Shown here one piece after another: positions 25,063 through 53,458 of a stretch of 64,000 nucleotides of DNA. How positions within the stretch are numbered: the stretch's first letter is position 1; each line of letters begins with the position of its first letter. The translations under genes were made by a program, and so were the position numbers. The notes below the pieces were generated by a model. That model was not told the origin of the DNA. It did not search any database and saw only the letters and a list, made by a program, of their open reading frames with translations. Source of the stretch: Tepidiformaceae bacterium (GTDB lineage Bacteria; Chloroflexota; Dehalococcoidia; Tepidiformales; Tepidiformaceae). The DNA lies in assembly GCA_958295975.1 (NCBI GenBank), contig OY282446.1:62001-126000 (forward strand), given 5' to 3'.

Positions 25063-25760
25063 TGCGCCTCCGCGCGAAGCCCCTCCCGCGCTTCGCGCAG
25101 CAGCGCGAACGGGGTAAGGAGGAGCAGCTTCAGGTCCAGCCACGGGCTCATGCGCCCAATATAGAGCAGATCGTAGCGGAGTTTCTGCGGGGGCGGCGTG
25201 GCGTAGCGCCCGCGCACCTGCGCCAGCCCGGTGACGCCGGGACGCACGAGCAGGCGGCGGGAGAAGCCGGGGATCTCGCGCTCGAAGCGCTCGGCCAGCA
25301 CGGGGCGCTCGGGCCGCGGCCCCACGAAGCTCATCTCACCGCGCAGGATGTTGATCATCTGCGGCATCTCGTCCAGGTGCAGGACGCGCAGGACGCGCCC
25401 GACCGCGGTCGTGCGGTCGGCGGCTTCGTTGGCCCAGACGGGGCCGGTTTCGACCTCGGCGTCCGGCACCATGGTGCGGAACTTGACCATCAGGAAGCGC
25501 TTGCCCCCGCGACCGAGCCGCTCCTGCCGGTAGAAGACGGGGCCGCGATCGCAGGCCCACACGGCCAGCGGCGCCAGCGTCCAGAACAGCGCCCAGAACG
25601 GCGCCAGCAGCAGATGGCCGAACAGCAGCACGGCGAGATCGAAGGAGCGCTGATAACCGTCGCGCCGGGAGAAGAGAACGGCTTCCGGCGACGCGGAAAC
25701 GGCGGCCTCGATCTCGTACGCCTCGCTCGCCGGAACTCCGTACTGCGGCGATGCTGCCAC
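25059..25760 (-). CDS. Bacterial sugar transferase (initiating phosphoglycosyl transferase)
   Basis: 233 residues. One membrane-associated helix (about 35-60; LAVLLFGHLLLAPFWALFWT) precedes the catalytic domain: FYRQERLGRGGKRFLMVKFRTM, with the E and D residues of the active site, DEMPQMINILRGEMSFVGPRP and RPGVTGLAQV. Such enzymes move a sugar phosphate from a UDP-sugar to undecaprenyl phosphate to begin a polysaccharide. GTG at 25760 is preferred: a TAGAAT box lies eight bases upstream, and the TTG at 25796 would place the promoter inside the gene. The length fits the small monotopic type. It heads the sugar transferase - dehydrogenase - dxr - rseP run. Confidence 0.87.
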   Translation of the reverse strand: MAASPQYGVPASEAYEIEAAVSASPEAVLFSRRDGYQRSFDLAVLLFGHLLLAPFWALFWTLAPLAVWACDRGPVFYRQERLGRGGKRFLMVKFRTMVPDAEVETGPVWANEAADRTTAVGRVLRVLHLDEMPQMINILRGEMSFVGPRPERPVLAERFEREIPGFSRRLLVRPGVTGLAQVRGRYATPPPQKLRYDLLYIGRMSPWLDLKLLLLTPFALLREAREGLRAEAQ

Positions 25761-25768
25761 GACTGGCG

Positions 25769-25796
25769 ATTCTATCCCATCATCCGCGGAGCGCAA
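25769..25796 (-). promoter_or_regulatory. Promoter of the sugar transferase, next to a G-tract
   Basis: On the minus strand TAGAAT (25769-25774) is a good -10, 16 bases downstream of TTGCGC (25791-25796), a weak -35. The GTG start is eight bases after the -10. The 15-G tract begins three bases beyond the -35, where changes in tract length could affect polymerase contact. Confidence 0.45.
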
Positions 25797-25799
25797 GTC

Positions 25800-25814
25800 G
25801 GGGGGGGGGGGGGG
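25800..25814. repeat. Mononucleotide tract of 15 G
   Basis: Fifteen G in a row on the plus strand, in the gap between the glycosyltransferase stop (25821) and the sugar transferase promoter. It is not inside either gene. In GC-rich DNA a run this long is still unusual and is prone to slip in replication or in sequencing. Confidence 0.95.
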
Positions 25815-25820
25815 TCGGCA

Positions 25821-26882
25821 TCAGGCATGCCGGCGCCTGCGCGCGGGCCAGAGGAAGCCCGCGCCCCAGCACAGGTGCATGGCCGCCAGCGCCAGCGGCA
25901 TCAGGAGCGCGGCGCCGTCCCGACGCCGCAGTCCGACGGCGGCGGACGCGCCCGCGAGCGTGAGCAGGTAGGCGAGGGGCGCCGCCAGCGCCGCCGGGGG
26001 AAACAGGGCGAGGCCGGCGACGGTGGAGGCGATCAGCGCCAGCAGCAGCAGGGGCGGGGCCAGCTGGCGGGGACGCAGCGAGGCCGGGTGCCGGAGCAGG
26101 ACCGCCGACTTCCAGCGCCCGTACTGGAAGTACTGGCGGGCGAGGTCGCGGAGCCCGCCGCGGGGCCGGTAGCCCGCGCTCAGGGCCGGGTCGAACCACA
26201 CGATCCCGCCGCGCTGGCGCAGCCGCCAGTTCAGCTCGTAGTCCTGATTCCGCAGCAGGGTGGCGTCGAAGCCCCCGGCGGCCTCCAGCGTCTCCCGCCG
26301 CCAGGCGCCGAGGTAGACGGTGTCGACCGGGCCCTCCGCGCCGCCCGCGCGGTAGGCGGCGTTGCCCGATCCCAGCGGGGTGGTGAGGGCGTGCGCGACC
26401 GCCCGCTCGAAGGGGGACACGCCCGCCGGGCGCTGCCGTCCGCCGACGTGGGCCGCGCCGGTGCGCCGCAGCGTCTCCACGGCGCGCCGCACGTAGCCCG
26501 GGGCGAGCGTGGCGTGGGCGTCGCAGCGGACGACGATCTCGCCGCCGGATTCGCGGATGGCGTGGTTCAGACCGGCGGGCGTGACGCGCTCCGGGTTGGG
26601 GATCACGCGCACGGAGGGCCAGCCGCGGCGGATGGCGTCCGCCATGTCGGGCGTGGCGGAGCCGTCGGCCACCACCACTTCCAGCTCGCCCGGGTACTCC
26701 TGGGCGAGCACCGAATCGAGCGCCGCGCCGATGGTGGCGGCGGCGTCGCGCGCGGGGATGATGACGGAGACGGAGGGGTAGGGGGCGGGCGCGGGCGGCG
26801 CGGCCGCTTCCGGTTCCTCCAGCGTCGCGCTGGCCGCCGCCGCGACGGCGGGCGCAGCGGGCGACACGGCGAACTCCGCCAT
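25821..26882 (-). CDS. Glycosyltransferase family 2 with C-terminal membrane helices
   Basis: 353 residues. An A/P-rich leader (1-40) precedes the GT-A fold: VSVIIPARDAAATIGAALDS, then ELEVVVADGSATPDMA, VVRCDAHATLAPGYV (the DxD-like metal site is DAH), and VYLGAWRRETLEAAGGFD, then LRNQDYELNWRLRQRGG. About four hydrophobic segments (about 265-345) end the protein. It probably adds a sugar to lipid-linked polysaccharide at the membrane. The ATG at 26882 has GGAGGG seven bases upstream. Its stop lies eight bases before the G-tract. Confidence 0.85.
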   Translation of the reverse strand: MAEFAVSPAAPAVAAAASATLEEPEAAAPPAPAPYPSVSVIIPARDAAATIGAALDSVLAQEYPGELEVVVADGSATPDMADAIRRGWPSVRVIPNPERVTPAGLNHAIRESGGEIVVRCDAHATLAPGYVRRAVETLRRTGAAHVGGRQRPAGVSPFERAVAHALTTPLGSGNAAYRAGGAEGPVDTVYLGAWRRETLEAAGGFDATLLRNQDYELNWRLRQRGGIVWFDPALSAGYRPRGGLRDLARQYFQYGRWKSAVLLRHPASLRPRQLAPPLLLLALIASTVAGLALFPPAALAAPLAYLLTLAGASAAVGLRRRDGAALLMPLALAAMHLCWGAGFLWPARRRRHA

Positions 26883-26938
26883 CGCGCATCCCTCCGACCA
26901 ACGGCGAATTCCCGCGAAGGGTACACCCCGCCCGGCTT

Positions 26939-28201
26939 TCACGCTCCCGCGGGCGGCGCGTCCGCGAGCACGGCGCGGAAGAGGGCCTCGTAGGCGGCGG
27001 CGGCGCGTTCGGGGGAGAAGTCGGCGGCCCGCCGCACGAGCGCCTCCGCGGGCGGTCGCCTGCCGTCGAGCGTCTCCTCCAGCGCCCGCGCGAGGGCGGG
27101 GGCGTCGCCCACGGGAACCAGCGCGCCCCACCTGCCGTCCCCGAGGATTTCGCGCGGGCCGTGGGGCGAATCCGTGCTCACCACCGGCGTCCCGCAGGCC
27201 AGTGCCTCGACGAGCGTCAGCGGCAGCCCCTCGTGCCTTGAGGAGAGCGCGACCACCGCCGCGCGGCGCATATGGCGCCAGGGGTTCTCGTCGAAACCGA
27301 GAAAGGCCACGTCCTCCGCCACGCCCGCGCGCGCGGCCAGCGCCCGCAGCTCCGCGCGATACGGCTTCGGGAACGCGCCCATGAACGCCAGCCGCGCGGG
27401 TCGCTTCCGGCGCACGCGCGCGAAGGCTTCGATGAGCGTGCCGGGATCTTTCGGGGGAGACTCCCTCGTCACCGTCAGAACGACGGGCGGTTCGCCTTCC
27501 CGGAACCAGTCATGGGGCGCTTCGGCGCGGCTCAGGCGCTCGATCTCCGCCACGGGCACGGGATTCGGGATAACGCGCACGCGCGCGACGTCGATCTCCA
27601 GCGCACGCGCGAGTTCGTCCGCCGCGCCGCGCGAAACCGCCACGAGCGCATCCGCGTTCGGGTAGAGCGCCCGCGCCCGCGCCCGCTGCAGCGGCGAATA
27701 CGCCAGCCGCGCATTGAGGTGCACGGCGACGACGGCGGGGACGGCCACCGCCCCCGCGGCGCGCCCGTACAGGAGGGCGGCGTCGGCACGCGGCAGGGCC
27801 GAGAGCAGCAGTTGGGGGCGGGCCTCGCGGACGTAGCGCGCGACCACGGACGCGTCGAGCGCGTTCCCCGGCCGTACGCCGAGCGCGGGATAGGCGCGCC
27901 GGAGCGCCAGCCACAGCCGCGCCGCCGCCAGCGGATTCACGGACAGGGGGCGCGTTTCGATGCCCCGCGCGCGGCAATGCCGCAACAGGTCGCGGTCGGA
28001 GTCGGGGCGGCGCGGGTAGCAGAGGCGCAGGCCGTCGGGGATGGCGGAACGGTACGCGCCCTTGCAGCGCAGCAGCAGCAGGTCGACGCGGTGGCCGCGT
28101 TCGAGCAGGGCGGCGGCCAGCGAGAGCGTGGCGCGCTCGGCCCCCCCGCCCCCCAGCCCGGAGAGCGCGAGGCCGACGTGGAGGCGCTCCGGCGGCGTCA
28201 T
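26939..28201 (-). CDS. Glycosyltransferase family 4
   Basis: 420 residues of the GT-B fold. N-terminal domain: LALSGLGGGGAERATLSLA and a lipid-sugar acceptor region. C-terminal domain: PPVVLTVTRESPPKDPGTLIEA, AFLGFDENPWRHM, and the nucleotide-sugar site SSRHEGLPLTLVEALACG with two glutamates, then PVVSTD. It retains donor-side sugar and adds to the growing polysaccharide. The ATG at 28201 overlaps the preceding polymerase gene by 4 bases, so this run is cotranscribed. Confidence 0.88.
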   Translation of the reverse strand: MTPPERLHVGLALSGLGGGGAERATLSLAAALLERGHRVDLLLLRCKGAYRSAIPDGLRLCYPRRPDSDRDLLRHCRARGIETRPLSVNPLAAARLWLALRRAYPALGVRPGNALDASVVARYVREARPQLLLSALPRADAALLYGRAAGAVAVPAVVAVHLNARLAYSPLQRARARALYPNADALVAVSRGAADELARALEIDVARVRVIPNPVPVAEIERLSRAEAPHDWFREGEPPVVLTVTRESPPKDPGTLIEAFARVRRKRPARLAFMGAFPKPYRAELRALAARAGVAEDVAFLGFDENPWRHMRRAAVVALSSRHEGLPLTLVEALACGTPVVSTDSPHGPREILGDGRWGALVPVGDAPALARALEETLDGRRPPAEALVRRAADFSPERAAAAYEALFRAVLADAPPAGA

Positions 28202-29616
28202 GCCGCGCCGCCTTCCCGCTCCCCGTCCGCCGCGAACGGGAGCGCCAGCAGCATCCCCAGCAGGACGAAGAGGGGGCGCGTGTCGAGTACCGACTGGCTC
28301 AGCAGGCTCCAGCCAACGAGGAATCCCGCGACGCAAACGCCCGGCCAGAAGCGCAGCCTCGCGAACGCACGGATCCCGGCGACCAGCAACGCGACATAGA
28401 GGAGCACGCCAACCGCGCCCTGATCGATCCCCAGGTCCAGATACATGACGGCGGGGTCCACTTCCATCGCCTCGCTGAAGCCCGTCCCGTGCCCCACGAC
28501 GGGGGATGCCGCGATTGCGTCGAGGGCGTTTCGCAGGCGGACGAGGCGGGCGTCATCGAATTCGATCACGCCGCCCTCCACGCGGGCGAGGTCGGGAGGT
28601 TCGGAACCGTCGATCCGGCCAAAGCCCTCCAGCCGCTGCCGGTAGCCCGCGAACGCATCCTCGTCGGCGGCGTCCCACCTGCGCGTGAGCCAGCCGCGCA
28701 CGTCGAGGAACTGGTCCACGCCGCGCACCACGTCGGGGCTGGACGCCTCGGCCCGCGCGCGCTCCATCCCCGTGAAGTAGGGGAGCGTCTGCACGGAAAG
28801 CCAGCAGACGAGGACCATGAGCGCCCCGGCGGCGGCAAAGGCGGACAGGCGGCGCAGGCGGCGCCCCGGCGGCGTGCGCCAGAGACTGAAGGCCAGCGCG
28901 CAGAGGGCCAGCAGGATGAAGAGCGCCAGCCCGCCGCGCGAGAGCGTCAGGAACACGGCGGTTCCGGCCAGGAAGAGCGCCGCCGGAGCGCCGGGGCCGG
29001 GGCGGCGCTCCGCCACGAGCGGCGCGGCCAGCAGCAGCAGCAGGTGGCTGGCGAGGTTGCTGTCCAGCGCCAGACCCGTCACGCGGTACTCGTGCAGCGA
29101 GAACGTGCCCACGCGGATGGCGTCCGCCCAGACGCTCAGGCAGAGCGCTGCGAAGGCGATCCACAGGTACGTCCGCCAGTGCCGCCGCACGGGGGACGCG
29201 AGCGGCAGCAGCGTCGCCGCCCCGCAGATGGCGAAGGGCAGGGCGATGGAGACCGCGTTCGCCGCCGAGGGATCGGGCGCGCGGAACCAGTTGGCCAGGC
29301 TGAGGACGACCAGCGCCGCGAAGGCCAGCGCGAACGGCCACTGGCGGCGCGCTAACGCCAGTCCGTGCTCCCGCAGATCGCGCCGCGAGCGCGCTCCGCC
29401 AGCCAGCAGGCAGAGCGCGAAAACGGCCATGCACGCGGCGAACAGGGCGATGCCGGGCGGACCCCAGCCGCGCAGCGCGGGCTGTTTGTCGAGCTGCGTC
29501 AGGAAGAGCGTGAAGAAGAGGGCGAGGAAAGCGTGGATGGCCGCGTCGCGGATGGGGAAGGCCCGCGCGCGCCGCCGGATGCGTTCGGGCAGGATGGGAC
29601 CGGCGAGCACGGCCAC
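28198..29616 (-). CDS. O-antigen ligase/polymerase-like membrane protein
   Basis: 472 residues with about 12 hydrophobic segments, and a long non-membrane stretch (about 290-380) that includes LDVRGWLTRRWDAADEDAF and VVGHGTGFSE, the place of the big periplasmic loop of Wzy/WaaL proteins. The loop carries basic residues (R), as in ligases that bind lipid diphosphate. It sits between glycosyltransferases, 4 bases after the upstream one and overlapping the next by 4, so a role in joining repeat units is likely. Ligase and polymerase cannot be separated by sequence. Confidence 0.75.
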   Translation of the reverse strand: MAVLAGPILPERIRRRARAFPIRDAAIHAFLALFFTLFLTQLDKQPALRGWGPPGIALFAACMAVFALCLLAGGARSRRDLREHGLALARRQWPFALAFAALVVLSLANWFRAPDPSAANAVSIALPFAICGAATLLPLASPVRRHWRTYLWIAFAALCLSVWADAIRVGTFSLHEYRVTGLALDSNLASHLLLLLAAPLVAERRPGPGAPAALFLAGTAVFLTLSRGGLALFILLALCALAFSLWRTPPGRRLRRLSAFAAAGALMVLVCWLSVQTLPYFTGMERARAEASSPDVVRGVDQFLDVRGWLTRRWDAADEDAFAGYRQRLEGFGRIDGSEPPDLARVEGGVIEFDDARLVRLRNALDAIAASPVVGHGTGFSEAMEVDPAVMYLDLGIDQGAVGVLLYVALLVAGIRAFARLRFWPGVCVAGFLVGWSLLSQSVLDTRPLFVLLGMLLALPFAADGEREGGAA

Positions 29617-29620
29617 GGCG

Positions 29621-30712
29621 CTATCGGGCGCGGGCGAGGGCGCGCAGATCGGCGGCCACGCCGTCGTACCAGCGCGCGCCGCGGAAGCATTCGCCGCGCC
29701 GCCCGGCCCCCTCGCGGAGACGGCGGCGCAGGTCGGGGTCCGCCACCAGCAGGCGGATGGCCGCCTCCAGTTCGCCCACGGAGCGGGGCGCGACCAGCAG
29801 CCCGCTCTCCCCGTGCCCGACCATGTCCGGGATGCCGCGCCAGCGCGTGGCGATCACGGGCGTTCCGCACTGGAGCGCCTCGACGACGACGCCCGGGTAG
29901 TTCTCGCCACGGTAGCGGGTGGGCAGCAGGAGCGCGTCGCATTCGCGCAGCACGGCGGGCACGCCGGCGGGGTCGAGCACGCCGCCGTAGAGCGCCCGCG
30001 GGTGCCCCTCGAAGAGGGCCCACTCCGTGTCGGGCATGGGCGGCCCGTACACGTGCAGGCGCCAGTCCGGCGGCAGGGAGCGGCAGGCCACCAGCGCCTC
30101 GGCCAGCCCTTTCTCCATACGCAATTGGCCGATGAAGGCGAGCTTCCCGCCCGCCTCGCGGCGCGGCGCGGACGCCTCCGGCGAAGGGGCCACGTCGCGC
30201 GTGTTGGGGAGCCAGCGGAAGTTGGCGGGATCGCCGAACTGGCGGCACAGCTGGCGCGATTCGACGAACACGAGCGGGCAGCGCAGGAAGGTGCGGTCCG
30301 CCAGCCAGCGCGCCAACGGCCCGTAGCGCCGATGCACCTCGAAGAGGGCGCCCCCGAAGAAACGCACGGCCAGCGGCCTGCGCGCGAGGCGGCAGACGAG
30401 CCAGAGCGCGGACGCCGCCGCCAGCGCCCCGTAGGGCGACATGTGGAGGAAGACGACGTCGGCGCGCCGGACCGCGGCCAGCACGCGCAGGAGCACGCGC
30501 GCGAAGACGAACGCCTCGCGCAGCAGCGTCCGCCCGCGGCTCGCGGCGGCGCGCGACCGCGAGGTGCTGACCACGTCGAGCGCGAATCCCCGCGACTCCA
30601 GCTCGCGGACGGTTTCGGCGAACGCCACCCTGGCCCCGCCGATCACGCCGTCGCGGCCGGACGCGGGACCGACCAGCAGGATTCTCGTCGGGGGACCGTC
30701 CTCAATGCTCAA
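29621..30712 (-). CDS. Glycosyltransferase family 4
   Basis: 363 residues, GT-B fold. N-terminal: RILLVGPASGRDGVIGGARVA, with RRADVVFLHMSPYG. C-terminal: GKLAFIGQLRMEKGLAEALVA, then LHVYGPPMPDT, YGGVLDPAGVPAVLRECD, LLLPTRYRGENYPGVVVEA (two glutamates that hold the sugar nucleotide), and GTPVIATRWRGIPDMV. It heads the three-gene run with the polymerase and a second GT4. The start ATG gives MSIEDGPPTR; no upstream gene lies within 120 bases, so the promoter is in the gap 30713-30835. Confidence 0.87.
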   Translation of the reverse strand: MSIEDGPPTRILLVGPASGRDGVIGGARVAFAETVRELESRGFALDVVSTSRSRAAASRGRTLLREAFVFARVLLRVLAAVRRADVVFLHMSPYGALAAASALWLVCRLARRPLAVRFFGGALFEVHRRYGPLARWLADRTFLRCPLVFVESRQLCRQFGDPANFRWLPNTRDVAPSPEASAPRREAGGKLAFIGQLRMEKGLAEALVACRSLPPDWRLHVYGPPMPDTEWALFEGHPRALYGGVLDPAGVPAVLRECDALLLPTRYRGENYPGVVVEALQCGTPVIATRWRGIPDMVGHGESGLLVAPRSVGELEAAIRLLVADPDLRRRLREGAGRRGECFRGARWYDGVAADLRALARAR

Positions 30713-30835
30713 GGCTCACCCGGGGGCCGGTCGCCGGGGGCCGGCGTTCGCGGCTGGCTCGCGGTTGCCCAACATACCAGCCAGCGGCGATACTCGCCGC
30801 CGCCGCCTCCGCTGCGGCGGAAGGAGCGCGCTCCC

Positions 30836-31750
30836 GTGAAATGCGTCGTCACCGGCGGCTGCGGCTTCATCGGCTCCCACCTGGTCGACGCGCTGGTCGC
30901 GCGCGGCGACGAGGTGGCGGCGCTGGACGACTTCTCGACCGGCGACCGCGGCTTCCTCAACCCCGCCGCGGCGCTGGTCGAGGGCTCCATCACGGACGCG
31001 GAGCTGCTGCGCTCCATGCTGCGCGGCGCCGATGCCGTCTTTCACACGGCGGCGATGGCGAGCGTGCCCCTGTCCGTGGACGATCCGGCGGGCACGCACG
31101 AGGTGAACGCCACGGGCACGCTGAACGTGCTGCAGGCGGCGCGCGAGGGCGGCGTCGGGCGCGTCGTCTTCTCCTCCTCCTCCAGCGTCTACGGCGAGCA
31201 GGCCAGCCCCATCATGCGCGAGGACATGACGCCGCGGCCGCTCTCGCCCTACGGGCTGCAGAAGCTCGTGGGCGAGCAGTACGCGGGCCTGTTCGCGCAG
31301 CTCTTCGGGATGCGCGCGGTCTCGCTGCGCTACTTCAACGTCTACGGCCCGCGCCAGCCCGCCAGGGGCGCCTACGCGCTCGTCATCCCCCAGTTCCTGC
31401 AGCTGCGCGCCGCGGGCAAGCCCCTGACCGTCTACGGCGACGGCCGCCAGACGCGCAGCTACATGCACGTGGACGACGTGGTGCGCGCCAACCTGCTGGC
31501 GGCGGACGCCGACCTGCCCGCGGGCGAGGGCGTCGTGCTCAACGTCGGCTCCGGGGAGGAGACGTCGGTCAACGAGATCGCCGCGCTCATCGGGGGCACG
31601 GTGGAGCACATCATCCCCAATCCGCGCGGCGCGTTCGAGGAGAGCCGCAAGTGCGCCGACCATTCGCGGGCGACGGCGCTCATCGGCTGGGCGCCGCGCA
31701 TCCCCTTCGCCGAGGGCCTTCGGAGCGTGCTCGAACCAGCCGCCGGATGA
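30836..31750 (+). CDS. NAD-dependent sugar-nucleotide epimerase/dehydratase (GalE-like)
   Basis: 304 residues of the short-chain reductase/epimerase fold. NAD motif TGGCGFIGSHLVDAL at the N terminus, then DDFSTGDRG, the serine and YxxxK catalytic pair in FSSSSSVYGEQ and SPYGLQKLVGEQ, RYFNVYGPRQ, and GDGRQTRSYMHVDDVV. It makes UDP-galactose or a related sugar for the polysaccharide locus. The GTG at 30836 has AAGGAG nine bases upstream. The only gene of the locus on the plus strand; it overlaps the neighbouring GT4 gene by 71 bases tail to tail. Confidence 0.9.
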   Translation: MKCVVTGGCGFIGSHLVDALVARGDEVAALDDFSTGDRGFLNPAAALVEGSITDAELLRSMLRGADAVFHTAAMASVPLSVDDPAGTHEVNATGTLNVLQAAREGGVGRVVFSSSSSVYGEQASPIMREDMTPRPLSPYGLQKLVGEQYAGLFAQLFGMRAVSLRYFNVYGPRQPARGAYALVIPQFLQLRAAGKPLTVYGDGRQTRSYMHVDDVVRANLLAADADLPAGEGVVLNVGSGEETSVNEIAALIGGTVEHIIPNPRGAFEESRKCADHSRATALIGWAPRIPFAEGLRSVLEPAAG

Positions 31751-32864
31751 GTTCCTCCCAGGCGTCGAGACAGGCCTCCGGCGAGTAGCCGGAGCTGATC
31801 GCCGCGCGGCCCGCCAGCCCCATCGCCCGCCGCTCCGCCGGGGACATGGCGGCGAGGCGCGCGATGGCCTCCGCCATGTCCGCGGGCGAGCGCGGATCGA
31901 AGAGGAAGCCGCTGCGCCCGTCCTCCACCAGCCGGGGCGTGTCGCTCACGCGGCTGGCGAGCACGGGCAGGCCGCAGGCCATGGCCTCGCAGATGGCATT
32001 GGAGACGCCCTCGGAGAACGACGGCAGGCAGACGGCGTCGGCAGCGCGGTAGAGCGGAACCACGTCCTCCAGCGGTTCGCGCAGGTGGAAGCGGTCGCCC
32101 AGCGAGCGGCGCGCGATCCCGGCCTCCAGTTCGCGCCGCCGGGCGGCCCGGCGGGCGTTGCGCGGGCTCTCCCCGGTCGTGGCCTCGCCGCGCCAGTCCA
32201 CGGTTATGTCCAGCTCGGGTCGTTCCCGCCGCAGGAGGTCCAGCGCCTCCAGCAGGCCGAAAGGGTTCTTCTGCGGACGAATGCGCGCCGGAACGAGCAG
32301 CCGCAGCCGTCCGGGCGCGCTCCCGTCGGGCGGATCGCCGGGCGCGAACCGCTCCGTGTCGATGCCGTTGACGATGACGCTGGTTCGCCCCGCGAGCGCG
32401 GGGGCCAGTTCCAGCATCCGCTCCCGTTGGGCGTGCGAGTTGCTGACCACCGCATCCGCCAGACGGTGCAGGGCGTAGCGCAAGCTGCGGCGCGGGCTCC
32501 AGCTGGACGTGTCGAGGACACGCTCCGAGGCCGCCACGGCGAAGCCCCGCCGGGGAAGCCCGGCCAGTTCGGCCAGCGCGGAGGGACCGGGCAGGAAGGC
32601 CAGCACCGCGTCGGGAGCGCCGCGGCGGATGGCCGCGCGCATGGCGAAGACGAGCGCCAGCCGGTTGCGCGATGGCACGTGGACCACGGGCACGCCCGCC
32701 TCCGCCAGCGCGTCCGCGAAGAAGTCGCCGCGCCGGTAGGTCAGCACGCGGACTTCGTGGCCGCGGCGACGCAGGCCCGCGGCCAGCAGCGCCAGCTGCC
32801 GCTGCGCGCCGCCGGGGCCGAGGTCGTCGATCGCCAGCGTCACGCGGAGGGGGTCAGGCGCCAA
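31680..32864 (-). CDS. Glycosyltransferase family 4
   Basis: 394 residues, GT-B fold. N-terminal AIDDLGPGGAQRQLALLAAG, C-terminal RLRLLVPARIRPQKNPFGLL, YRAADAVCLPSFSEGVSNA (donor-site glutamate), and CGLPVLASRVSDTPRLV. TTG at 32864 is chosen because GGAGGCGGACCG precedes it and the fold begins shortly after; the alternative GTG at 32843 has no ribosome site. The start overlaps the flippase gene by 11 bases. The C-terminal 20 residues (SEGPRRRGCAAPSR at the end) lie on DNA that also encodes the end of the convergent epimerase. Confidence 0.85.
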   Translation of the reverse strand: MAPDPLRVTLAIDDLGPGGAQRQLALLAAGLRRRGHEVRVLTYRRGDFFADALAEAGVPVVHVPSRNRLALVFAMRAAIRRGAPDAVLAFLPGPSALAELAGLPRRGFAVAASERVLDTSSWSPRRSLRYALHRLADAVVSNSHAQRERMLELAPALAGRTSVIVNGIDTERFAPGDPPDGSAPGRLRLLVPARIRPQKNPFGLLEALDLLRRERPELDITVDWRGEATTGESPRNARRAARRRELEAGIARRSLGDRFHLREPLEDVVPLYRAADAVCLPSFSEGVSNAICEAMACGLPVLASRVSDTPRLVEDGRSGFLFDPRSPADMAEAIARLAAMSPAERRAMGLAGRAAISSGYSPEACLDAWEELIRRLVRARSEGPRRRGCAAPSR

Positions 32865-34218
32865 CGGTCCGCCTCCAGCCGTACGCCTGCCCAAGCACCG
32901 CGCGCCCCGAGCGCCACAGGTAGGCGGCGTCGCCGGCGCGCGGCAGCCAGGCGCTGGCCAGCGGGATGCCCGTGGCGCGATGGAACACAACGGCGAGGAA
33001 GAGGCCCTCGATGAGCAGGCCGAGCGTCATCGCCCAGGCGGCCCCCTCCATGCCGAACAGGGGGTAGAGGGTGAGGATGCCGGCCGCGTTGACGGCGATG
33101 CCGATCCACGAGCCCCACGAGCAGACGTGCGGCCGCTTGGAGGCGAGGAAGTAGGTCGAGAGGATGGCGGTGGCGGCGAGGGCCAGTATCCCCGGCGCGA
33201 TGATGCGAATGAGCGGGACCATGTCGAGGAAGCGCTCGGAGAAGAAGATGCGCACGAGCGGCGGGCTGAGCAGGATGAAGAGCGCCAGCCCCGCCACGGT
33301 GACGCCGCAGGCGAGGCGCAGGCACAGCCCGAACAGCGCGTAGCGGTCTTCCGTCACGCCCGCGCTGCGGGGGAAGAGGACGGTGCCGAGCACCTCGGCG
33401 GGGATGCCGAAGCGCAGCATGATGGCGCTGGCCGTGGCGAAGATGCCGATGTCGCCCACGTCCGCGCGCGCCGCGATCACCCCCAGCAGCAGGATGCCCA
33501 GACGCGAATCGAGGAAATTGCCCATCTGCGCGGGGTGGTACCTGAGCCCGTAGCCGAGCAGGCGCGCGCCGATGCCGATGGACGGCATTTCGAACGTCAG
33601 CCCGCAGCGGCGGCGGAAGTACCAGAGGCAGGCGGCGGCGGTGAAGCCGTTGCCCACGATGAGCGCCAGCAGCGCCCCGTTGACGCCGCCGTCGAACCCC
33701 CACACCAGCGCCACCGTGAGGAGCGTCACGAGCGCCGCCTGCGCGGGCAGGACGGCGGCGAGCCAGCCGAAGCGCCGCAGGCCGGTCAACTGCACCTCGA
33801 ACGCATTCGCCAGGTAGACGAGCGGCACCAGCGCGAGCGCGAGGTGGAACGAGCCGGCGTCGGCCTGCTTGAAGAAGAGCGCGCCGCTCCCGATCAGGGG
33901 CATGGCCAGCACCGCCACCAGCGCGCTTCCCGCGAGCGTGACCGCCAGCACGGACGCCACGCCCTGCGACAGGCGCGCGCCGCCGGTGGTGACGTGGTAG
34001 AGCGAGCCCTTGTCCACGCTCAGCGTGAAGAGCAGCCCGGCGACGGCGGCGAAGGTGACGCAGACGGCGTACTCGCCGCGGCCCTCCGGCAACAGGAACC
34101 AGGCCAGCACGCTCTGCGAGCCGAGGCTGATCAGCAGGCTGATCACGCGGGCGGCGAGGAAGAAGGCCGCGTCCTGGCTGGCGGCGGTGCGCGGCGCGGC
34201 CGCTTCCGGCGAGGTCAC
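32854..34218 (-). CDS. Polysaccharide flippase (Wzx/MATE-like)
   Basis: 454 residues with about 12-14 hydrophobic segments. Features of the Wzx/PST family: ISLLISLGSQSVLAWFLLP at the first segment, GRGEYAVCVTFAAV, then GATASAIMLRFGI-like segments and LFPRSAGVTEDRY. It moves lipid-linked repeat units across the membrane. GTG at 34218 overlaps the sulfotransferase stop (GTGA), so it is translated together with it. The long frame upstream of GTG has no domain. Its stop overlaps the next glycosyltransferase by 11 bases. Confidence 0.85.
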   Translation of the reverse strand: MTSPEAAAPRTAASQDAAFFLAARVISLLISLGSQSVLAWFLLPEGRGEYAVCVTFAAVAGLLFTLSVDKGSLYHVTTGGARLSQGVASVLAVTLAGSALVAVLAMPLIGSGALFFKQADAGSFHLALALVPLVYLANAFEVQLTGLRRFGWLAAVLPAQAALVTLLTVALVWGFDGGVNGALLALIVGNGFTAAACLWYFRRRCGLTFEMPSIGIGARLLGYGLRYHPAQMGNFLDSRLGILLLGVIAARADVGDIGIFATASAIMLRFGIPAEVLGTVLFPRSAGVTEDRYALFGLCLRLACGVTVAGLALFILLSPPLVRIFFSERFLDMVPLIRIIAPGILALAATAILSTYFLASKRPHVCSWGSWIGIAVNAAGILTLYPLFGMEGAAWAMTLGLLIEGLFLAVVFHRATGIPLASAWLPRAGDAAYLWRSGRAVLGQAYGWRRTVGA

Positions 34219-35087
34219 GCGCCCGCACCGCGCGCGCGCCGCAGGAAGACGCCGGGCCGCGGGCGTTCCGACGCCTCCGCGACGGTCGCGCGGCATTCGC
34301 GCCAGGATTCCGCCAGCACCCGCGCGCTGGCCTCGGAGAGGGACGGGGCCGCGTCCGCGCCGTCGAGCGGGGCGAAGAGGAGCGCCCGCAGGCGGCGGCT
34401 GTCCTTGAGGCGCTGGAGCGTGCGCCGCAGGCCCAGCCGCCGCAGCGCGAGGGCGGCCAGCTTCCCCGCGACGGCGAGCGGCGGGACGCGCGCCCGCACC
34501 GCTTCGTTCACCGCGCCCGTCTCCGCGGCGGGCGCGAACGGCGCGACCCCGCAGAGGGCGGCGAGGCAGTCGAGCGTGGCCGCCACGTCCGCCGTGAGGG
34601 CGTCGAAGCAGAGGGCGAGCACGTCGGCGTCGAGGGCGTAGAGGGCCAGCAGGCGCCCGCGCGTGAGCCGGTCCCGCACCACCGCCTTCTCCAGCCGCCG
34701 CGCGCCGAGCAGGGCGGAGAACTCGCCGCGGCTGCGGCGGAAGGCGATCATGGAACGGGCGCGCTCGCGGTGGTCCCGCAGCAGCACCACCAGCAGGACG
34801 CGCACGCCCCGCGCCCGCAGCGCCCGCACGCCCGGCGCGAGGGCGGCGTCGCGGTAGCCGAGGTTGGCGACGTCGACCAGCACCCGCCCATCGCTGCGGG
34901 CGCGCGCCTTGCGGAAGGCGCGCGGCGAGCGGTAGTAGTAGCCCTCCTTGATTTCGGGGAAGGCGAAGGCGGGATGGCCCTTCAGGCGGCGGTAGAGGAA
35001 CTCGCTGCCGGAGCGTCCGGGGCCGACCACCAGCAGGTAGTCGCAGGCGGGGCCGTCGGGAGCCGTCACGCCGCGCCGTCCCCGCAT
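34215..35087 (-). CDS. Sulfotransferase family protein
   Basis: 290 residues. PAPS-binding 5' loop YLLVVGPGRSGSEFLYRRLKG (GxxRSGS-type P-loop; shown as segments GPGRSGSEFLYRRL) and a 3'-phosphate segment LLRDHRERARSMIAFRRSRGE with the R and S typical of the family. It transfers sulfate from PAPS to a polysaccharide or lipid. It is the first gene of the sulfotransferase - flippase - GT4 run, which suggests that the surface polysaccharide is sulfated. ATG at 35087 is used; a GTG at 35069 is also possible. Confidence 0.82.
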   Translation of the reverse strand: MRGRRGVTAPDGPACDYLLVVGPGRSGSEFLYRRLKGHPAFAFPEIKEGYYYRSPRAFRKARARSDGRVLVDVANLGYRDAALAPGVRALRARGVRVLLVVLLRDHRERARSMIAFRRSRGEFSALLGARRLEKAVVRDRLTRGRLLALYALDADVLALCFDALTADVAATLDCLAALCGVAPFAPAAETGAVNEAVRARVPPLAVAGKLAALALRRLGLRRTLQRLKDSRRLRALLFAPLDGADAAPSLSEASARVLAESWRECRATVAEASERPRPGVFLRRARGAGA

Positions 35088-36818: not shown

Positions 36819-38801
36819 TCAGTCCGGGAACGACAGCCTCTCCCGCCATACCGTCTCAAATGTCGTCTCGCCATCCCTCTCTCCCAGGATATACTGACCC
36901 GTGGTCAGATACTCGATGTCGTAAGCTGGAAGATAGCGTAGCGCAACGCACGTATCATCCCGAATTTCCCCATACCGGTCAAAAGCAAAGTCGAGGTTCT
37001 CGAATCCGTGTTCCCTTCGCTCCGGGGGAAGGTCTTCAGTGCGAACCGGATAGATGTGCAAGGAAAACGACTTCGCCTCTTCGGTACAGGACTCTTTGAT
37101 ATAAATGAGCCGGGAATCATCAAGATAGATATTATATTCGGAGCGTATCACCGGATCGGATGCCAGAATGCGATCCAGTCCTTCAGCAAAAAGAGCGTGC
37201 ACGGGGAAATACAGGCGTCCCGTCCACACGGGTTCGAAAGTCTCCTGCCCATCCACTTCTCCCACAATATGCTGGCCGGTGGCCAGATGCGCAATATTGT
37301 AGGAAGGAAGAAAGCGCAACGCGATGCACATGCTGCTTTCAGTCCATCCGTATCGATCAAAATCAAAGTCGAAGTTCTCAAACCCATCTTCTTTTCTTTC
37401 TTCGGGCAGGTCATCAACTCGATCTGGAGAAATGTGCAGGAAAAATGGCTCCTCTTCTTCCTCACAGGATTCCTTGATGTAAATGAGCCGTGAATCATCA
37501 AGGTAAACATCATACCGGGAACGTATCACGGGTTCGGATGCCAAAATACGGTCTATCTCCGCGATGGACAATCGCATTCCGAAGGGCACGGGAGCGGCAT
37601 TCGGGTCAATCACATGGATTTCCCCGTCCAGTGTGACAAGGTAGAGCAAACCGTTCCGCTCGAGGATAGCGGTCGTGAGTGTATTTTCCGAATAAACGAC
37701 TGTCGGATTGAATGTTTCGTAGTCGAACCGTTCCACTACTCTTCTGGCGTCTTCCTCAATGTGAAGATACGCAACATAGACTCCATCTTCATTCGCATGC
37801 GTTGCAGTCGATGCCACTCCCTGCAGGATTGCCACGGGCTCAGTCACATTTGCATCAGGGGGAGCCTCGTTCGTTCCATACATGGGAAAGCCGTAGAATT
37901 CTCCCTCCCTGATTGCATTCAGTTCCTCCAGGTGTCCGGATTCTGCTATTCCATCCCCGACATCGTTGTCCGCGCCATAGATCGTTCCATCGGGCGCTAT
38001 GGAGATGCCGTATACGTTCCGTAATCCCCGTGCATAGATCTCAACACTCCCGGATGGATCTATACGCGCAATTACTCCCATTAAATCATGCCTTACCGAC
38101 ATATCCTCTAGCTGATCAACGTGATCTCCAAAGTATCGATGAGGGTATCCAATGGACACATACACGTAGTTACCATCGTTTGTCAGTCCGTTCGGACTAT
38201 GATCTCTACCTATTACTACAATTCTGTCCACGATCACTTGTTCAGTGTCAAGGTTCCCGGTCTCATCAATGCGATACGAAAAGATTCTGGCTGTGTATTG
38301 TGCAAGATGTTCCAGAAGTACATCATTTGGACGTCTGCTCATGAGTATTTTGCACCACGGGAGCACACGGAATCTGGCAGCTTCCAGCCTCTCCGCCTCG
38401 TCCCGGATACCCTGGCAGACGTTCCCCAGGTCCGTGACGTACAACCGGTCGCGCAGAACCGTCACGCCCTGTGGCATGCTCAATCCCGTCTTCACCGTCC
38501 GCAACTCCCCAGTCCTGACATTCAGGAGGCGTATGCGCCCCTCGAGATCCGTCAGGTACATGCGGTGATCGTCGAGCCAGGCGGCCGCCGTGAGCATGCC
38601 CCCCGGCGTCAACATGCCGCAGTAGCCGCCCCGTTCCAGGCAGCCCTCAGGCAACAGGGGTTCGGCTGCGAGCGCGGAAGCGGGCGGGGGCTCGTTCATG
38701 TCGCCGTTCCCGCCGCCGCAGGCGACAAGCAGCGCCGCCGCCAGAACGAAGGCCAACGCCCCACCGACGCGCACCGGGACGTGGCGCCGTGCGGCGCTCA
38801 T
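36819..38801 (-). CDS. Glucose/sorbosone-dehydrogenase-like beta-propeller lipoprotein with duplicated C-terminal module
   Basis: 660 residues. N-terminal lipoprotein signal (AALLVACGGGNGD; Cys about 28). About 70-430 is a beta-propeller of the soluble aldose/sorbosone dehydrogenase type: PQGVTVLRDRLYVTDLGN, NGLTNDGNYVYVSIGYP, GLRNVYGISIAPDGTIYGAD and ELNAIREGEFYGFPMYGT. The C-terminal about 230 residues are two copies of one module: DRILASEPVIRSRYDVYLD and DRILASDPVIRSEYNIYLD, each followed by an F-F-L-H-I/F-S-L-H-I segment, DLPEER.. or DLPPER.., and TGQHIV or TGQYIL. The first about 150 codons are GC-rich like the neighbours; the rest is clearly AT-richer. Start overlaps the VOC gene by 4 bases. 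Function unknown; a secreted sugar or PQQ-linked enzyme is possible. Confidence 0.78.
   Translation of the reverse strand: MSAARRHVPVRVGGALAFVLAAALLVACGGGNGDMNEPPPASALAAEPLLPEGCLERGGYCGMLTPGGMLTAAAWLDDHRMYLTDLEGRIRLLNVRTGELRTVKTGLSMPQGVTVLRDRLYVTDLGNVCQGIRDEAERLEAARFRVLPWCKILMSRRPNDVLLEHLAQYTARIFSYRIDETGNLDTEQVIVDRIVVIGRDHSPNGLTNDGNYVYVSIGYPHRYFGDHVDQLEDMSVRHDLMGVIARIDPSGSVEIYARGLRNVYGISIAPDGTIYGADNDVGDGIAESGHLEELNAIREGEFYGFPMYGTNEAPPDANVTEPVAILQGVASTATHANEDGVYVAYLHIEEDARRVVERFDYETFNPTVVYSENTLTTAILERNGLLYLVTLDGEIHVIDPNAAPVPFGMRLSIAEIDRILASEPVIRSRYDVYLDDSRLIYIKESCEEEEEPFFLHISPDRVDDLPEERKEDGFENFDFDFDRYGWTESSMCIALRFLPSYNIAHLATGQHIVGEVDGQETFEPVWTGRLYFPVHALFAEGLDRILASDPVIRSEYNIYLDDSRLIYIKESCTEEAKSFSLHIYPVRTEDLPPERREHGFENLDFAFDRYGEIRDDTCVALRYLPAYDIEYLTTGQYILGERDGETTFETVWRERLSFPD
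36822..37566 (-). repeat. Tandem duplication coding two about 120-residue C-terminal modules
   Basis: The 3' part of the lipoprotein gene consists of two in-frame copies (about 37180-37566 and 36822-37180) whose products align along their whole length (SRLIYIKESC occurs in both). The DNA copies have diverged, so the duplication is not recent. Confidence 0.8.
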
Positions 38802-42409: not shown

Positions 42410-42669
42410 GCCGCTTCCTCGCCTCCGTGGCGGTCACGCTCAAGCCCGCCGTGAACGACCCCGAGGGGCTGACCATCGCCTCCGCGCTGCACAGCCTCGG
42501 CTTCGCGGGCGTGGCCTCCGTGCGCGCGGGCAAGCTCTTCGAGATCGCCATCGAGGCGTCGAGCGCGGAGGAGGCGCGGACGATGGCGGAGGCCATGTGC
42601 GAGCGCCTGCTGGCCAACCCCGTGATGGAGCGCTACGCCTGCGCCATCGCGGAAGCGGAGCGCGCCTAG
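42406..42669 (+). CDS. purS: Phosphoribosylformylglycinamidine synthase, PurS subunit
   Basis: 87 residues; small subunit that bridges PurQ and PurL in FGAM synthase. It shows the short alpha/beta fold VTLKPAVNDPEGLTIASALHSLGF and VRAGKLFEIAIEA, typical of PurS. It begins with GTG inside the purC stop. purQ usually follows, but here the next DNA is an AT-rich insert (from about 42710), so purQ and purL must be elsewhere or were displaced. Confidence 0.92.
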   Translation: MSRFLASVAVTLKPAVNDPEGLTIASALHSLGFAGVASVRAGKLFEIAIEASSAEEARTMAEAMCERLLANPVMERYACAIAEAERA

Positions 42670-42726
42670 GGGTCAGGCGATGCGCGCCACGGCGGAGGGC
42701 GGGTAGACAGTGTCGGCACCCAGCAG

Positions 42727-42732
42727 TACACT
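42727..42732 (+). promoter_or_regulatory. TACACT -10 box, six bases before the AlbA_2 gene
   Basis: TACACT at 42727-42732, then six bases, then the GTG at 42739. This is the same leaderless spacing as at host genes, so the foreign-looking gene has a promoter suited to this host. Confidence 0.5.
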
Positions 42733-42738
42733 CCATTC

Positions 42739-43544
42739 GTGGTCCCTGAGGAGAGCAACATCGAAAAGCTGCTCGCAGCCAAGCGTGAGTCCCTGAATAT
42801 CGAGTACAAGGGATCTGCGCCGTGGGATAGCTTGTGCTACAAACTCATCAGGACTGTCATGGCCATGGCCAATACCCGACGCGGTGGGAACATTGTCATT
42901 GGAGTGGAGGATGGGACTTTCCATGCAGCCGGAGTGCATGACATTCACGGCAAAACTTTCCCGAGTGAAGAAAAATTTCTTGCGAAAGTGAATGCATTTT
43001 CCGACCCGCATGTCCAGTTTCAGTTTTCCAAGCAGACGCATGGTGGAAAAGATTTCTGGGTTGCTACAGTCCCGGAGTCTGATCATATTCCTGTTTTTTG
43101 CACTCGATCAGAAAAGAATATTCTCAAAAGAGGAGCTGTCTATGTTCGTTCGACTCGGATTCCAGAGACTGTGGCAATTCATTCTCCGACACCGGATGAT
43201 CTTCGAAATCTGATAGATTTAGCAGTACGAAAAAGAACTACTTCTTTCACTCGTCGAGCCACAACATCGGTGAATAAAGTTCTGACGGATGAAGATTGGA
43301 CTAAGGGAACAATCAGCCAGACTCCAACTATCACAATCCCTTATTTTGAGGAAGATAGCTATATATCCTTGCTGTTCCTGATTCCGTTGAGGTTGTTGAG
43401 ATCAAGCTGGGGGTCAATGATATGGATGATCTCACGAAAATCTCTGGCATAATCGACGGTGAAAAATGGAACATATGGACTTCTAATAATAAGCTGTTTT
43501 CCAGTGCTTATTCCGAGGGAACGGCCATTATCCGCGCACAATAG
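42739..43544 (+). pseudogene. AlbA_2 (Schlafen-like) domain protein, frameshifted
   Basis: The N-terminal about 150 residues are an AlbA_2-type putative nucleic-acid/ATP-binding domain: ESLNIEYKGSAPWDS, MANTRRGGNIVIGVEDG, VYVRSTRIPETV. The frame is open to a stop near 43452, but its last 32 residues look random. Moving to the -1 frame at a TATATAT run (43360-43366) gives coding-like sequence EEDSYILAVPDSVEVVEIK..., ending at TAG 43542-43544. Removing one AT unit restores a 267-residue protein. The region is AT-rich, unlike its GC-rich neighbours, so it was probably acquired. Whether the shift is a mutation, a phase-variable site or an assembly error is open. Some AlbA_2 proteins take part in phage defence. 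Confidence 0.72.
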
Positions 43545-43557
43545 TTGAAATATACGA

Positions 43558-43593
43558 TTAATCGCGAATGCCCTGCTTCCTCAGCTCGACCAT
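43558..43593 (-). pseudogene. Possible 5' stub of a protein-L-isoaspartate methyltransferase gene
   Basis: Minus-strand ATG at 43593 gives MVELRKQGIRD and a stop (TAA 43558-43560) at the exact place where the AT-rich insert begins. The peptide resembles the usual Pcm start (E. coli has QLRAQGIQD at the same place). A TAGGAT box lies six bases upstream. It is best read as the first codons of a gene cut off by the insert. Eleven residues cannot prove the family. Confidence 0.35.
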
Positions 43594-43599
43594 GACACC

Positions 43600-43605
43600 A
43601 TCCTA
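43600..43605 (-). promoter_or_regulatory. TAGGAT -10 box before the pcm-like stub
   Basis: Minus-strand TAGGAT, six bases, then ATG at 43593. The TAG of this box is also the stop codon of the phosphatase gene at 43603. Confidence 0.4.
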
Positions 43606-49338: not shown

Positions 49339-51768
49339 ATGCTTGAATCGACGGAGGCGACGCTGGCGAAGGCGCTGGCGGGCGCGGCGCCCACCGCGGA
49401 GGAGGCGCGCGCCCTCGCCCGCGAGGACGACCTCGCGGCCCTCGCCGGGGCCGCCGCCGCCATGCGCGACCAGGCCCACCGCCGCGTTATCTCGTATTCG
49501 CGCAACTGCTTCATCCCCCTCACGAAGCTCTGTCGCGACGTGTGCCACTACTGCACCTTCGCGCAGCCGCCGCGCCCCGGCGAAGCCGCCTACCTGACGA
49601 TCGACGAGGTGCTGGCGATCGCGCGCGGGGCCGCCGCCGCGGGCTGCACGGAGGCGCTCTTCACGCTGGGCGACAAGCCCGAGCTGCGCTACGAGGCCGC
49701 CCGCCGCGAACTGGCCGCCCTCGGCCACGAGACCACCATCTCCTACCTCGCCGAGGCGGCGGGCGCGGTCGTCGAGGAGACGGGGCTGCTGCCCCACCTG
49801 AACCCGGGCGTCATGACCGCCGCCGACATCGCCCTGCTGCGCGAGGTCTCCGTCTCGCAGGGGATCATGCTGGAGAGCGTCTCGCCGCGCCTGATGGAGA
49901 AGGGCGAGGCGCACCACGGCTCGCCCGACAAGGAGCCCGCCGCCCGCCTGGAGACGATCCGGCTGGCCGGGGAACTGGCCGTGCCCTTCACCTCCGGCAT
50001 CCTCATCGGCATCGGCGAGACGCGGCTGGAGCGCATCGACTCGCTGCTCGCCCTGCGCGCCGCGCACGAGGCGCACGGGCACGTTCAGGAGCTGATCATC
50101 CAGAACTTCCGGGCCAAGCCGGGCACGCGCATGGCGAACGCGCCGGAGCCCGATTTCGACGACCTGCTCTGGACGCTGGCGGTGGCGCGCATCCTCTTCG
50201 GGCCGGAAATGGGCGTGCAGGCGCCCCCCAACCTGATGCCCGATTCCTACGGGCGGCTGGTGGCGGCGGGGCTGAGCGACTGGGGCGGCGTCTCGCCCGT
50301 GACCATCGACCACGTGAACCCCGAGGCCCCGTGGCCGCAGCTGGAGGCGCTGCGCCGCCAGACGGAGGCCGCGGGCCACCACCTCGCCGAGCGCCTCGCC
50401 GTCTACCCCGCCTACGCGCGCGACGGCGGGCGCTGGCAGAGCGCGGCCATGGCCACGCGCGTGCTGCGCGCGATGGACGCGGACGGCTTCGCGCGCGCGG
50501 GCGATTGGGCCCCCGGGGCGGTGCTCGACCCGCCCGCGGACGCCTCCCCGCGCACGCCGCCGGGCGCGTTGCCGCCCGATTCGCCCGTGCCCGCGCTGGC
50601 GGACAAGGCGCGCCGCGGCGAGGAGCTGGCGGAGGCCGATCTGGCCCGCCTGTTCGAGGCCCGCGGCCCCGAATTCGACTACCTGCGCGCCGCCGCCGAC
50701 GAGCTGCGCGCGGAGGTCAGCGGCGACATCGTGCGCTACGTCGTCAACCGCAACATCAACTACACGAACATCTGCTACTTCAAGTGCCAGTTCTGCGCCT
50801 TCTCCAAGGGCAAGCTGAGCGAGAACCTGCGGGGCAAGCCGTACGACCTCGGCATCGACGAGGTGGTGCGCCGCGCACGCGAGGCGTGGGAGCGCGGGGC
50901 CACCGAGGTGTGCATGCAGGGCGGCATCCACCCCGACTACACGGGGGCCACCTACCTGGAGCTGTGCGCGGCGGTGAAGGAGGCACTGCCGGGGATGCAC
51001 GTGCACGCCTTCTCCCCGCTTGAGGTGCACCAGGGAGCGGCCACGCTGGGCGTGCCCGTGCCCGAGTTCCTGGGGCGGCTGCGGGAGGCGGGGCTGGGCA
51101 CGCTGCCGGGCACCGCCGCCGAGATCCTCGACGACGACATGCGCGCCATCCTTTGCCCCGACAAGCTGAGCGCGGACGAGTGGATCGGCGTGGTGGAGGC
51201 GGCGCACGGGGTCGGGTTCACCACCACCTCCACCATCATGTACGGCCACGTGGACGGGCCCGGGCCGTGGGCGCGGCACCTGCTGCGCCTGCGCCGCCTG
51301 CAGGAGCGCACGGGCGGCATCAGCGAGTTCGTGCCCCTGCCCTTCGTGCACATGGACGCGCCGCTCTACCTGAAGGGGCGCGCGCGCCGCGGCCCCACCT
51401 GGCGCGAGGCCATCCTCATGCACGCCGTGGCGCGGCTGGCCCTCCATCCCCTCATTCCCAACATCCAGGTCTCGTGGGTGAAGATGGGCGCGGAGGGCTC
51501 GAAGGCGTGCCTGCGGGCGGGGGCGAACGACATGGGCGGCACGCTCATGAACGAGAGCATCAGCCGCGCCGCCGGGGCCAGCCACGGGCAGGAGATGCCC
51601 CCCGAGGCCATGGACGCGCTCATCGCGGGCATGGGGCGCATCCCCCGCCAGCGCACGACCCTCTACGGCGCGCCGCCGCCGGAGCGCACCGGCGCCTCCT
51701 ACGGCGCGGACGAGCTCACGCCCATCGTGCTCACGCCCGCGAAGAAGTACGCGCGCGTCGCCCGCTAG
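49339..51768 (+). CDS. fbiC: Bifunctional FO synthase (CofG-CofH fusion)
   Basis: 809 residues; two radical-SAM enzymes in one chain that make the deazaflavin FO of coenzyme F420. The CofG half has NCFIPLTKLCRDVCHYC, with CxxxCxxC; GITLGDKPE-like segments and ISYLAEAAGAVVEETG follow. The CofH half has NINYTNICYFKCQFCAF (CxxxCxxC) and MQGGIHPDYTGATYLELC. Both cluster motifs are intact. Fused FbiC is seen in actinobacteria and in some Chloroflexota. GGAAGGGGCGCGGAG precedes the ATG, and TACCAT is a possible -10. Its 3' end, KYARVAR-stop, is repeated at 53400. Confidence 0.95.
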   Translation: MLESTEATLAKALAGAAPTAEEARALAREDDLAALAGAAAAMRDQAHRRVISYSRNCFIPLTKLCRDVCHYCTFAQPPRPGEAAYLTIDEVLAIARGAAAAGCTEALFTLGDKPELRYEAARRELAALGHETTISYLAEAAGAVVEETGLLPHLNPGVMTAADIALLREVSVSQGIMLESVSPRLMEKGEAHHGSPDKEPAARLETIRLAGELAVPFTSGILIGIGETRLERIDSLLALRAAHEAHGHVQELIIQNFRAKPGTRMANAPEPDFDDLLWTLAVARILFGPEMGVQAPPNLMPDSYGRLVAAGLSDWGGVSPVTIDHVNPEAPWPQLEALRRQTEAAGHHLAERLAVYPAYARDGGRWQSAAMATRVLRAMDADGFARAGDWAPGAVLDPPADASPRTPPGALPPDSPVPALADKARRGEELAEADLARLFEARGPEFDYLRAAADELRAEVSGDIVRYVVNRNINYTNICYFKCQFCAFSKGKLSENLRGKPYDLGIDEVVRRAREAWERGATEVCMQGGIHPDYTGATYLELCAAVKEALPGMHVHAFSPLEVHQGAATLGVPVPEFLGRLREAGLGTLPGTAAEILDDDMRAILCPDKLSADEWIGVVEAAHGVGFTTTSTIMYGHVDGPGPWARHLLRLRRLQERTGGISEFVPLPFVHMDAPLYLKGRARRGPTWREAILMHAVARLALHPLIPNIQVSWVKMGAEGSKACLRAGANDMGGTLMNESISRAAGASHGQEMPPEAMDALIAGMGRIPRQRTTLYGAPPPERTGASYGADELTPIVLTPAKKYARVAR

Positions 51769-51802
51769 CCGCCCGGTTCCCACGAGACGACGCCCAGCGC
51801 CC
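51744..51802. repeat. Left 59-bp direct repeat
   Basis: Identical to 53400-53458 except at one base (G at 51771, T at 53427), at a constant offset of 1656. It contains the last codons and stop of fbiC and, in reverse, the final codons of a methyltransferase. Confidence 0.95.
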
Positions 51803-53399: not shown

Positions 53400-53458
53400 G
53401 AAGTACGCGCGCGTCGCCCGCTAGCCTCCCGGTTCCCACGAGACGACGCCCAGCGCCC
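53400..53458. repeat. Right 59-bp direct repeat
   Basis: Second copy of the 51744 repeat. It includes 21 bases that match the end of fbiC (here non-coding) and the genuine final codons of the methyltransferase. Confidence 0.95.

Follow-up and report, generated by a model that had tools for sequence, protein, structure and literature searches.

The gene at 36819-38801 on the minus strand of the window (the whole stretch of 64,000 nucleotides that was analysed) encodes a propeller lipoprotein that ends in two copies of an undescribed module. In our best explanation, to which we give slightly less than even odds (about 0.45), the module is an extracytoplasmic Ig/Fn3-like unit, mobile between phyla and between genes, that serves glycan-active envelope enzymes of one community as a binding or docking module. 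The parts of the gene are:

36819..38801, minus strand: whole gene, propeller lipoprotein plus two C-terminal modules, 660 aa (ORF translation)
38718..38801, minus strand: signal peptide and lipobox LVAC, residues 25-28 (by inspection of the translation)
37587..38669, minus strand: beta-propeller region, residues ~45-405, weak GSDH match (PF07995 score and 13 homologues at 52-60% identity)
38352..38411, minus strand: composition break, residues ~130-150, GC3 falling from 0.87 to ~0.50 (base composition)
37224..37562, minus strand: first copy of the module, core aa 418-522, or 414-526 including flanks (repeat/profile comparison)
36846..37184, minus strand: second copy of the module, core aa 544-648, or 540-652 including flanks (repeat/profile comparison; structure predicted from this copy)

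The gene and its module

The first-pass annotation had described a propeller lipoprotein with two copies of a module marked by DRILAS.PVIRS, SRLIYIKESC and TGQ motifs, and this description held. As in bacterial lipoproteins, an N-terminal hydrophobic stretch precedes a lipobox Cys, and the C-terminal ~240 residues form two module copies of ~108 aa each that share all three motifs and are 65% identical over 113 residues, where the best identity among 2000 shuffles was 18%. The copies differ at 53 third, 30 first and 22 second codon positions, a third-position excess that indicates constraint and an old duplication. The ATG of the gene overlaps the stop codon of an upstream glyoxalase-like gene. 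A surface-polysaccharide cluster occupies 23710-35087 of the window on the minus strand (UDP-sugar dehydrogenase, sugar transferase, GT2, three GT4, a Wzy_C ligase/polymerase, a MurJ-like flippase and a weak sulfotransferase(-like) gene); our gene stands 1.7 kb from it on the same strand, and this nearness may be coincidence, given the four unrelated genes between.

The claim that the module is undescribed was borne out as well. Against 91 diverse module copies, Pfam and NCBIfam gave isolated chance matches only, with none to fn3 (PF00041) at E <= 0.1, to any Ig-family Pfam entry or to a type IX sorting domain of NCBIfam; PDB sequences, also searched for a well-known domain, gave no significant match. 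PDB profile matches to GABA receptors (E 0.24 and up) and PHROGs matches were judged to be chance. A literature search found no paper describing the module or naming the OY282/CATQH records, from which many copies come (see below), as symbionts.

Conservation reaches 80% or more at 40 positions among the 91 copies; two Cys and one Trp are invariant, and the motifs TGQ, LP.Y and GFDNLDF nearly so. An AlphaFold model of copy 2, made with the 91 sequences (pLDDT 91.9, pTM 0.84), consists mostly of strands, and the solved structures most like it are Fn3/Ig-like sandwiches (aligned over 80-95 residues at VIA-align Z 6-7), a Z of about 7 being a middling similarity that can come from a common arrangement alone; Foldseek gave no match below 1e-3. 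An Ig/Fn3-like beta-sandwich of seven predicted strands is the likely fold class, not a proven kinship, and the two cysteines would form a disulfide. The module resembles Fn3/Ig-like domains in this predicted sandwich, in size and in tandem extracytoplasmic use, but has a conserved set of its own (the two Cys, GFDNLDF, LP.Y, TGQ and Trp) and is joined to glycosyltransferases and propellers.

Distribution and hosts of the module

A single-copy query returned no relatives and alignment A1 had no stretch conserved enough, but the narrower alignment A2, searched against 84,980 species genomes, gave 325 confirmed relatives. The best 79 of these were examined, and every one belongs to a single MAG accession series (OY282352-OY282565 plus CATQH) that spans seven phyla; the remaining 246 may include other sources. 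The labels among the best 79 are Latescibacteria, Caldilineaceae, Entotheonella, Gammaproteobacteria, Pseudomonadales, Bryobacterales, Nitrospirales, Binatia and Dehalococcoidia. The first-pass annotation had mentioned similar single copies at the ends of proteins in Dehalococcoidia-like genomes: copies do end many proteins, but in a range of phyla for which that description is too narrow.

All 27 genomes of the series that were tested carry the module, at 17-65 copies each. It was absent from the 59 relatives of our genome that were searched (8 of the same genus, 27 of the same family, 24 of the same class) and, outside the series, from phylum-mates in five of six sampled phyla: other Latescibacterota (0 of 62), other Tectomicrobia (0 of 4), Pseudomonadota (0 of 298), Binatota (0 of 197) and Nitrospirota (0 of 294), in samples that were not exhaustive, that left out Acidobacteriota and that, where large, had limited candidates scored per genome. 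Seven of 400 sampled Chloroflexota had it, our own genome included, and five Chloroflexota outside the recognised series hold 1-7 diverged copies each. The distribution is thus close to all-or-none. Assembly artefact or contamination was rejected on the intact frames, the different bodies, the mostly single-chromosome assemblies and the wide divergence; phage or plasmid origin is unsupported, viral contigs searched with A2 and plasmids searched with the whole protein having yielded no relatives.

In our genome (2.40 Mb, one contig) about 21 proteins carry 40 module copies between them, and almost every copy sits C-terminally on a polytopic, GT-C-type protein; apart from the window gene the intact hosts of this genome are polytopic, with several above the PMT_2 cut-off. 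Across the best 79 of the 325 loci together with this genome, GT-C-type or similar polytopic hosts make up about 96 frames in three clusters (7-10 hydrophobic segments; several above the GT-C/PMT_2 cut-off, others below it or without a Pfam match). A further 29 hosts are multi-span membrane proteins with an invariant AGEE.SWGQR and no Pfam match, 10 are propeller lipoproteins of the GSDH type (a cytochrome c domain occurs in at least one) and six are arylsulfotransferase propellers. The module sits C-terminally on its hosts in 1-4 copies, with an internal exception, one divergent module inside a cadherin/fn3/LRR protein (L082 1-3291, open frame 2788 aa). Most recognised host bodies belong to families whose substrates are sugars or sulfate esters, and the host types suggest the outer side of the cytoplasmic membrane as the common location of the module.

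The multi-span family (L152 4766-6154 and 28 relatives) also has invariant TP..L..N and H residues and often occurs in arrays of module genes; its model (pLDDT 76.7) gave no usable fold match. Two genes of our own genome look damaged: L009 371761-372237 is a broken-looking module gene, a 158-aa piece with about one and a third modules, and L012 783551-785578 has an N-terminal part unlike its paralogues, as if frameshifted.

The C-terminal sorting domains of type IX secretion are Ig-like and are found at the C-terminus of many cargo proteins per genome. The module is like them in being a predicted Ig-like domain placed C-terminally on many proteins of one genome, but differs in its polytopic hosts, its often tandem and once internal arrangement and its presence in both monoderm and diderm phyla; we dropped a sorting-signal reading because most hosts are polytopic membrane proteins.

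Transfer between phyla and history of the window gene

Host bodies are 70-88% identical between phyla over several hundred residues; a Latescibacterota body and a Pseudomonadota one, for example, are 88% identical over 577 aa. The GT-C tree mixes phyla (8 changes for 8 rows of Latescibacterota, 7 for 9 of Pseudomonadota); paralogy adds to this mixing, not to the high inter-phylum identities. Module similarity is independent of the body: between genomes, module identity is 0.55 on unrelated bodies and 0.55 on same-family bodies, and across phyla body and module identity are uncorrelated (r = 0.11). For modules on unrelated bodies in one genome the identity is 0.60, a value reached in 0 of 300 permutations. 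At a Latescibacteria locus (L169), neighbouring GT-C and arylsulfotransferase genes with unrelated main bodies have in common a 339-bp module that is 97.6% identical at the DNA level. The inter-phylum identity of bodies, the body-independent similarity of modules and this pair together argue for a module that behaves as an independent unit: it travels across phyla along with its hosts, and inside genomes it is copied from one gene into another. The same locus has a second, shorter repeat (beginning SDCFWQRMEPHFDYQSGDVGVIVDGRMVQAF) at 3693-3844, 6404-6555 and 6554-6705; it precedes the module in two adjacent genes whose bodies are otherwise unrelated.

The higher likeness within than between genomes is what a shared partner would favour, and so bears on an explanation by protein-protein docking or self-association, in which modules bind each other or a single common partner and so hold glycosyltransferases and lipoproteins together as an envelope complex, no glycan being bound. 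The presence of one module on both membrane and lipoprotein enzymes, and its tandem copies, would suit such a complex, but the difference (0.60 against 0.55) is small and gene-to-gene copying alone could give it, and a search that was not systematic found no dedicated partner protein; we consider this explanation unlikely. Copying, together with the C-terminal position and some broken copies, could also mark a passive mobile repeat that spreads by recombination and is tolerated for doing little. That reading we think very improbable: it is weakened by the strong conservation of the module across the 91 diverse copies, the third-position excess between the window copies and the confident compact fold run against it, and no mobile element was identified.

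As for the propeller itself, the window-gene body has a marginal, partial match to GSDH (PF07995; 26.5 bits at a cut-off of 25, aa 175-309) and falls outside the ScyD/ScyE family (NF033206; 28 bits at a cut-off of 80). Other module hosts match GSDH strongly, where the window gene is alike only weakly, and both families differ from it in having no such C-terminal modules. Five Chloroflexota MAGs of the one series contain 13 homologues of the propeller, 52-60% identical to it; none of comparable strength was found in the 39 relatives searched, and acquisition is therefore likely. Four of the five homologue loci that were read have one module each, and the remaining one (L184, frame 474 aa) has no module that we could find.

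Base composition bears on the same history. In a window of GC 0.72 overall, GC3 is 0.87 over aa 1-130, 0.50 over aa 131-410 and 0.50 and 0.56 in the modules, so that the GC-rich start and AT-rich remainder reported by the first-pass annotation are real. Its further suggestion, a chimera of host signal peptide and acquired body, survives in part: the break is genuine and acquisition is likely, but the GC-rich part is more than the signal peptide and extends to residue ~130-150. The break falls ~100 residues downstream of the lipobox, within the propeller; the GC-rich stretch before it also aligns with the propeller homologues, and these are not uniform in composition either, showing a fall in GC along the gene that is milder than in the window gene. 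We therefore rejected the signal-peptide chimera as stated, recombination or partial replacement inside the gene fitting better. Two own-genome hosts (596490 and 1287636) have the reverse mismatch, with bodies at GC3 0.61-0.66 and modules at 0.88-0.92, and from these opposite mismatches bodies and modules seem to differ in history. On the best reading the window gene came in by acquisition, the donor probably being another Chloroflexota member of the same community; its module was then duplicated in place, a step peculiar to this gene, and its 5' part was recombined or replaced. Two further AT-rich stretches of the window, at 42601-43600 and 51601-53400 (GC 0.42-0.56), are possibly acquired DNA.

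A candidate envelope part of one community

Most recognised hosts act on sugars or sulfate esters and a polysaccharide cluster lies nearby, and it is for these reasons that we favour a binding or docking module for glycan-active enzymes. On this explanation 1-4 tandem copies at the C-termini of envelope proteins, namely GT-C-type glycosyltransferases, the multi-helix membrane family and propeller lipoproteins of sugar-dehydrogenase and arylsulfotransferase type, would draw these enzymes to a common surface ligand, for which an envelope glycan or animal matrix is a candidate.

Entotheonella is known from sponges. The same link is made in the title of PMC11705928; OY282 numbers are used for Sanger Tree of Life assemblies, and sponge metagenomes published by the Sanger Aquatic Symbiosis Genomics project contain circular MAGs of, among others, Latescibacteria, Tectomicrobia, Binatia, Chloroflexota and Acidobacteriota (PMC12648040; PMC12181767). 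The community of the series is likely, though unproven, to be a marine sponge holobiont. The four negative Tectomicrobia may be sponge symbionts themselves; the module would then be a mark of particular communities and not of sponges generally.

Cadherin, fn3, NHL and PQQ proteins are enriched and laterally transferred among sponge symbionts (PMC8163846; PMC9531527). The module is like these eukaryote-like or adhesion proteins, fn3 and cadherin included, in its transfer between phyla of one, here probably animal-associated, community, but they are known domains, and the module is undescribed, sits on envelope enzymes, is close to all-or-none in distribution and reaches tens of copies per genome. 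Such enrichment and transfer of surface proteins, with this distribution over seven phyla and the high copy number, would also fit a recognition tag, displayed by many community members to gain tolerance or recognition from the animal host or from neighbouring cells. We judge this quite unlikely, as most copies are on inner-membrane proteins, which would be unexposed in diderm members, and the association with an animal host is one that we infer.

As a docking module, the reading that we prefer, it may be a part of the cell surface that unrelated symbionts of probably one sponge-type community hand on to each other. A wider proposal, which we put forward tentatively and with more doubt than belief, is that an entire animal-associated community has this one Ig-like module as its shared surface part: seven phyla would exchange it, each member would have expanded it to tens of copies and relatives elsewhere would lack it, such that its presence can be read as membership, be it as a glycan-docking part or as a recognition tag. 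Lateral transfer of adhesins and repeat proteins among sponge symbionts is already known; a single undescribed domain at 17-65 copies per tested member in seven phyla, yet present in hardly any sampled relative, would, if the proposal is true, be an unusually sharp genomic mark of one-community life. The module would then offer a marker for community membership and gene flow, and a testable molecule for how unrelated bacteria jointly build a compatible envelope.
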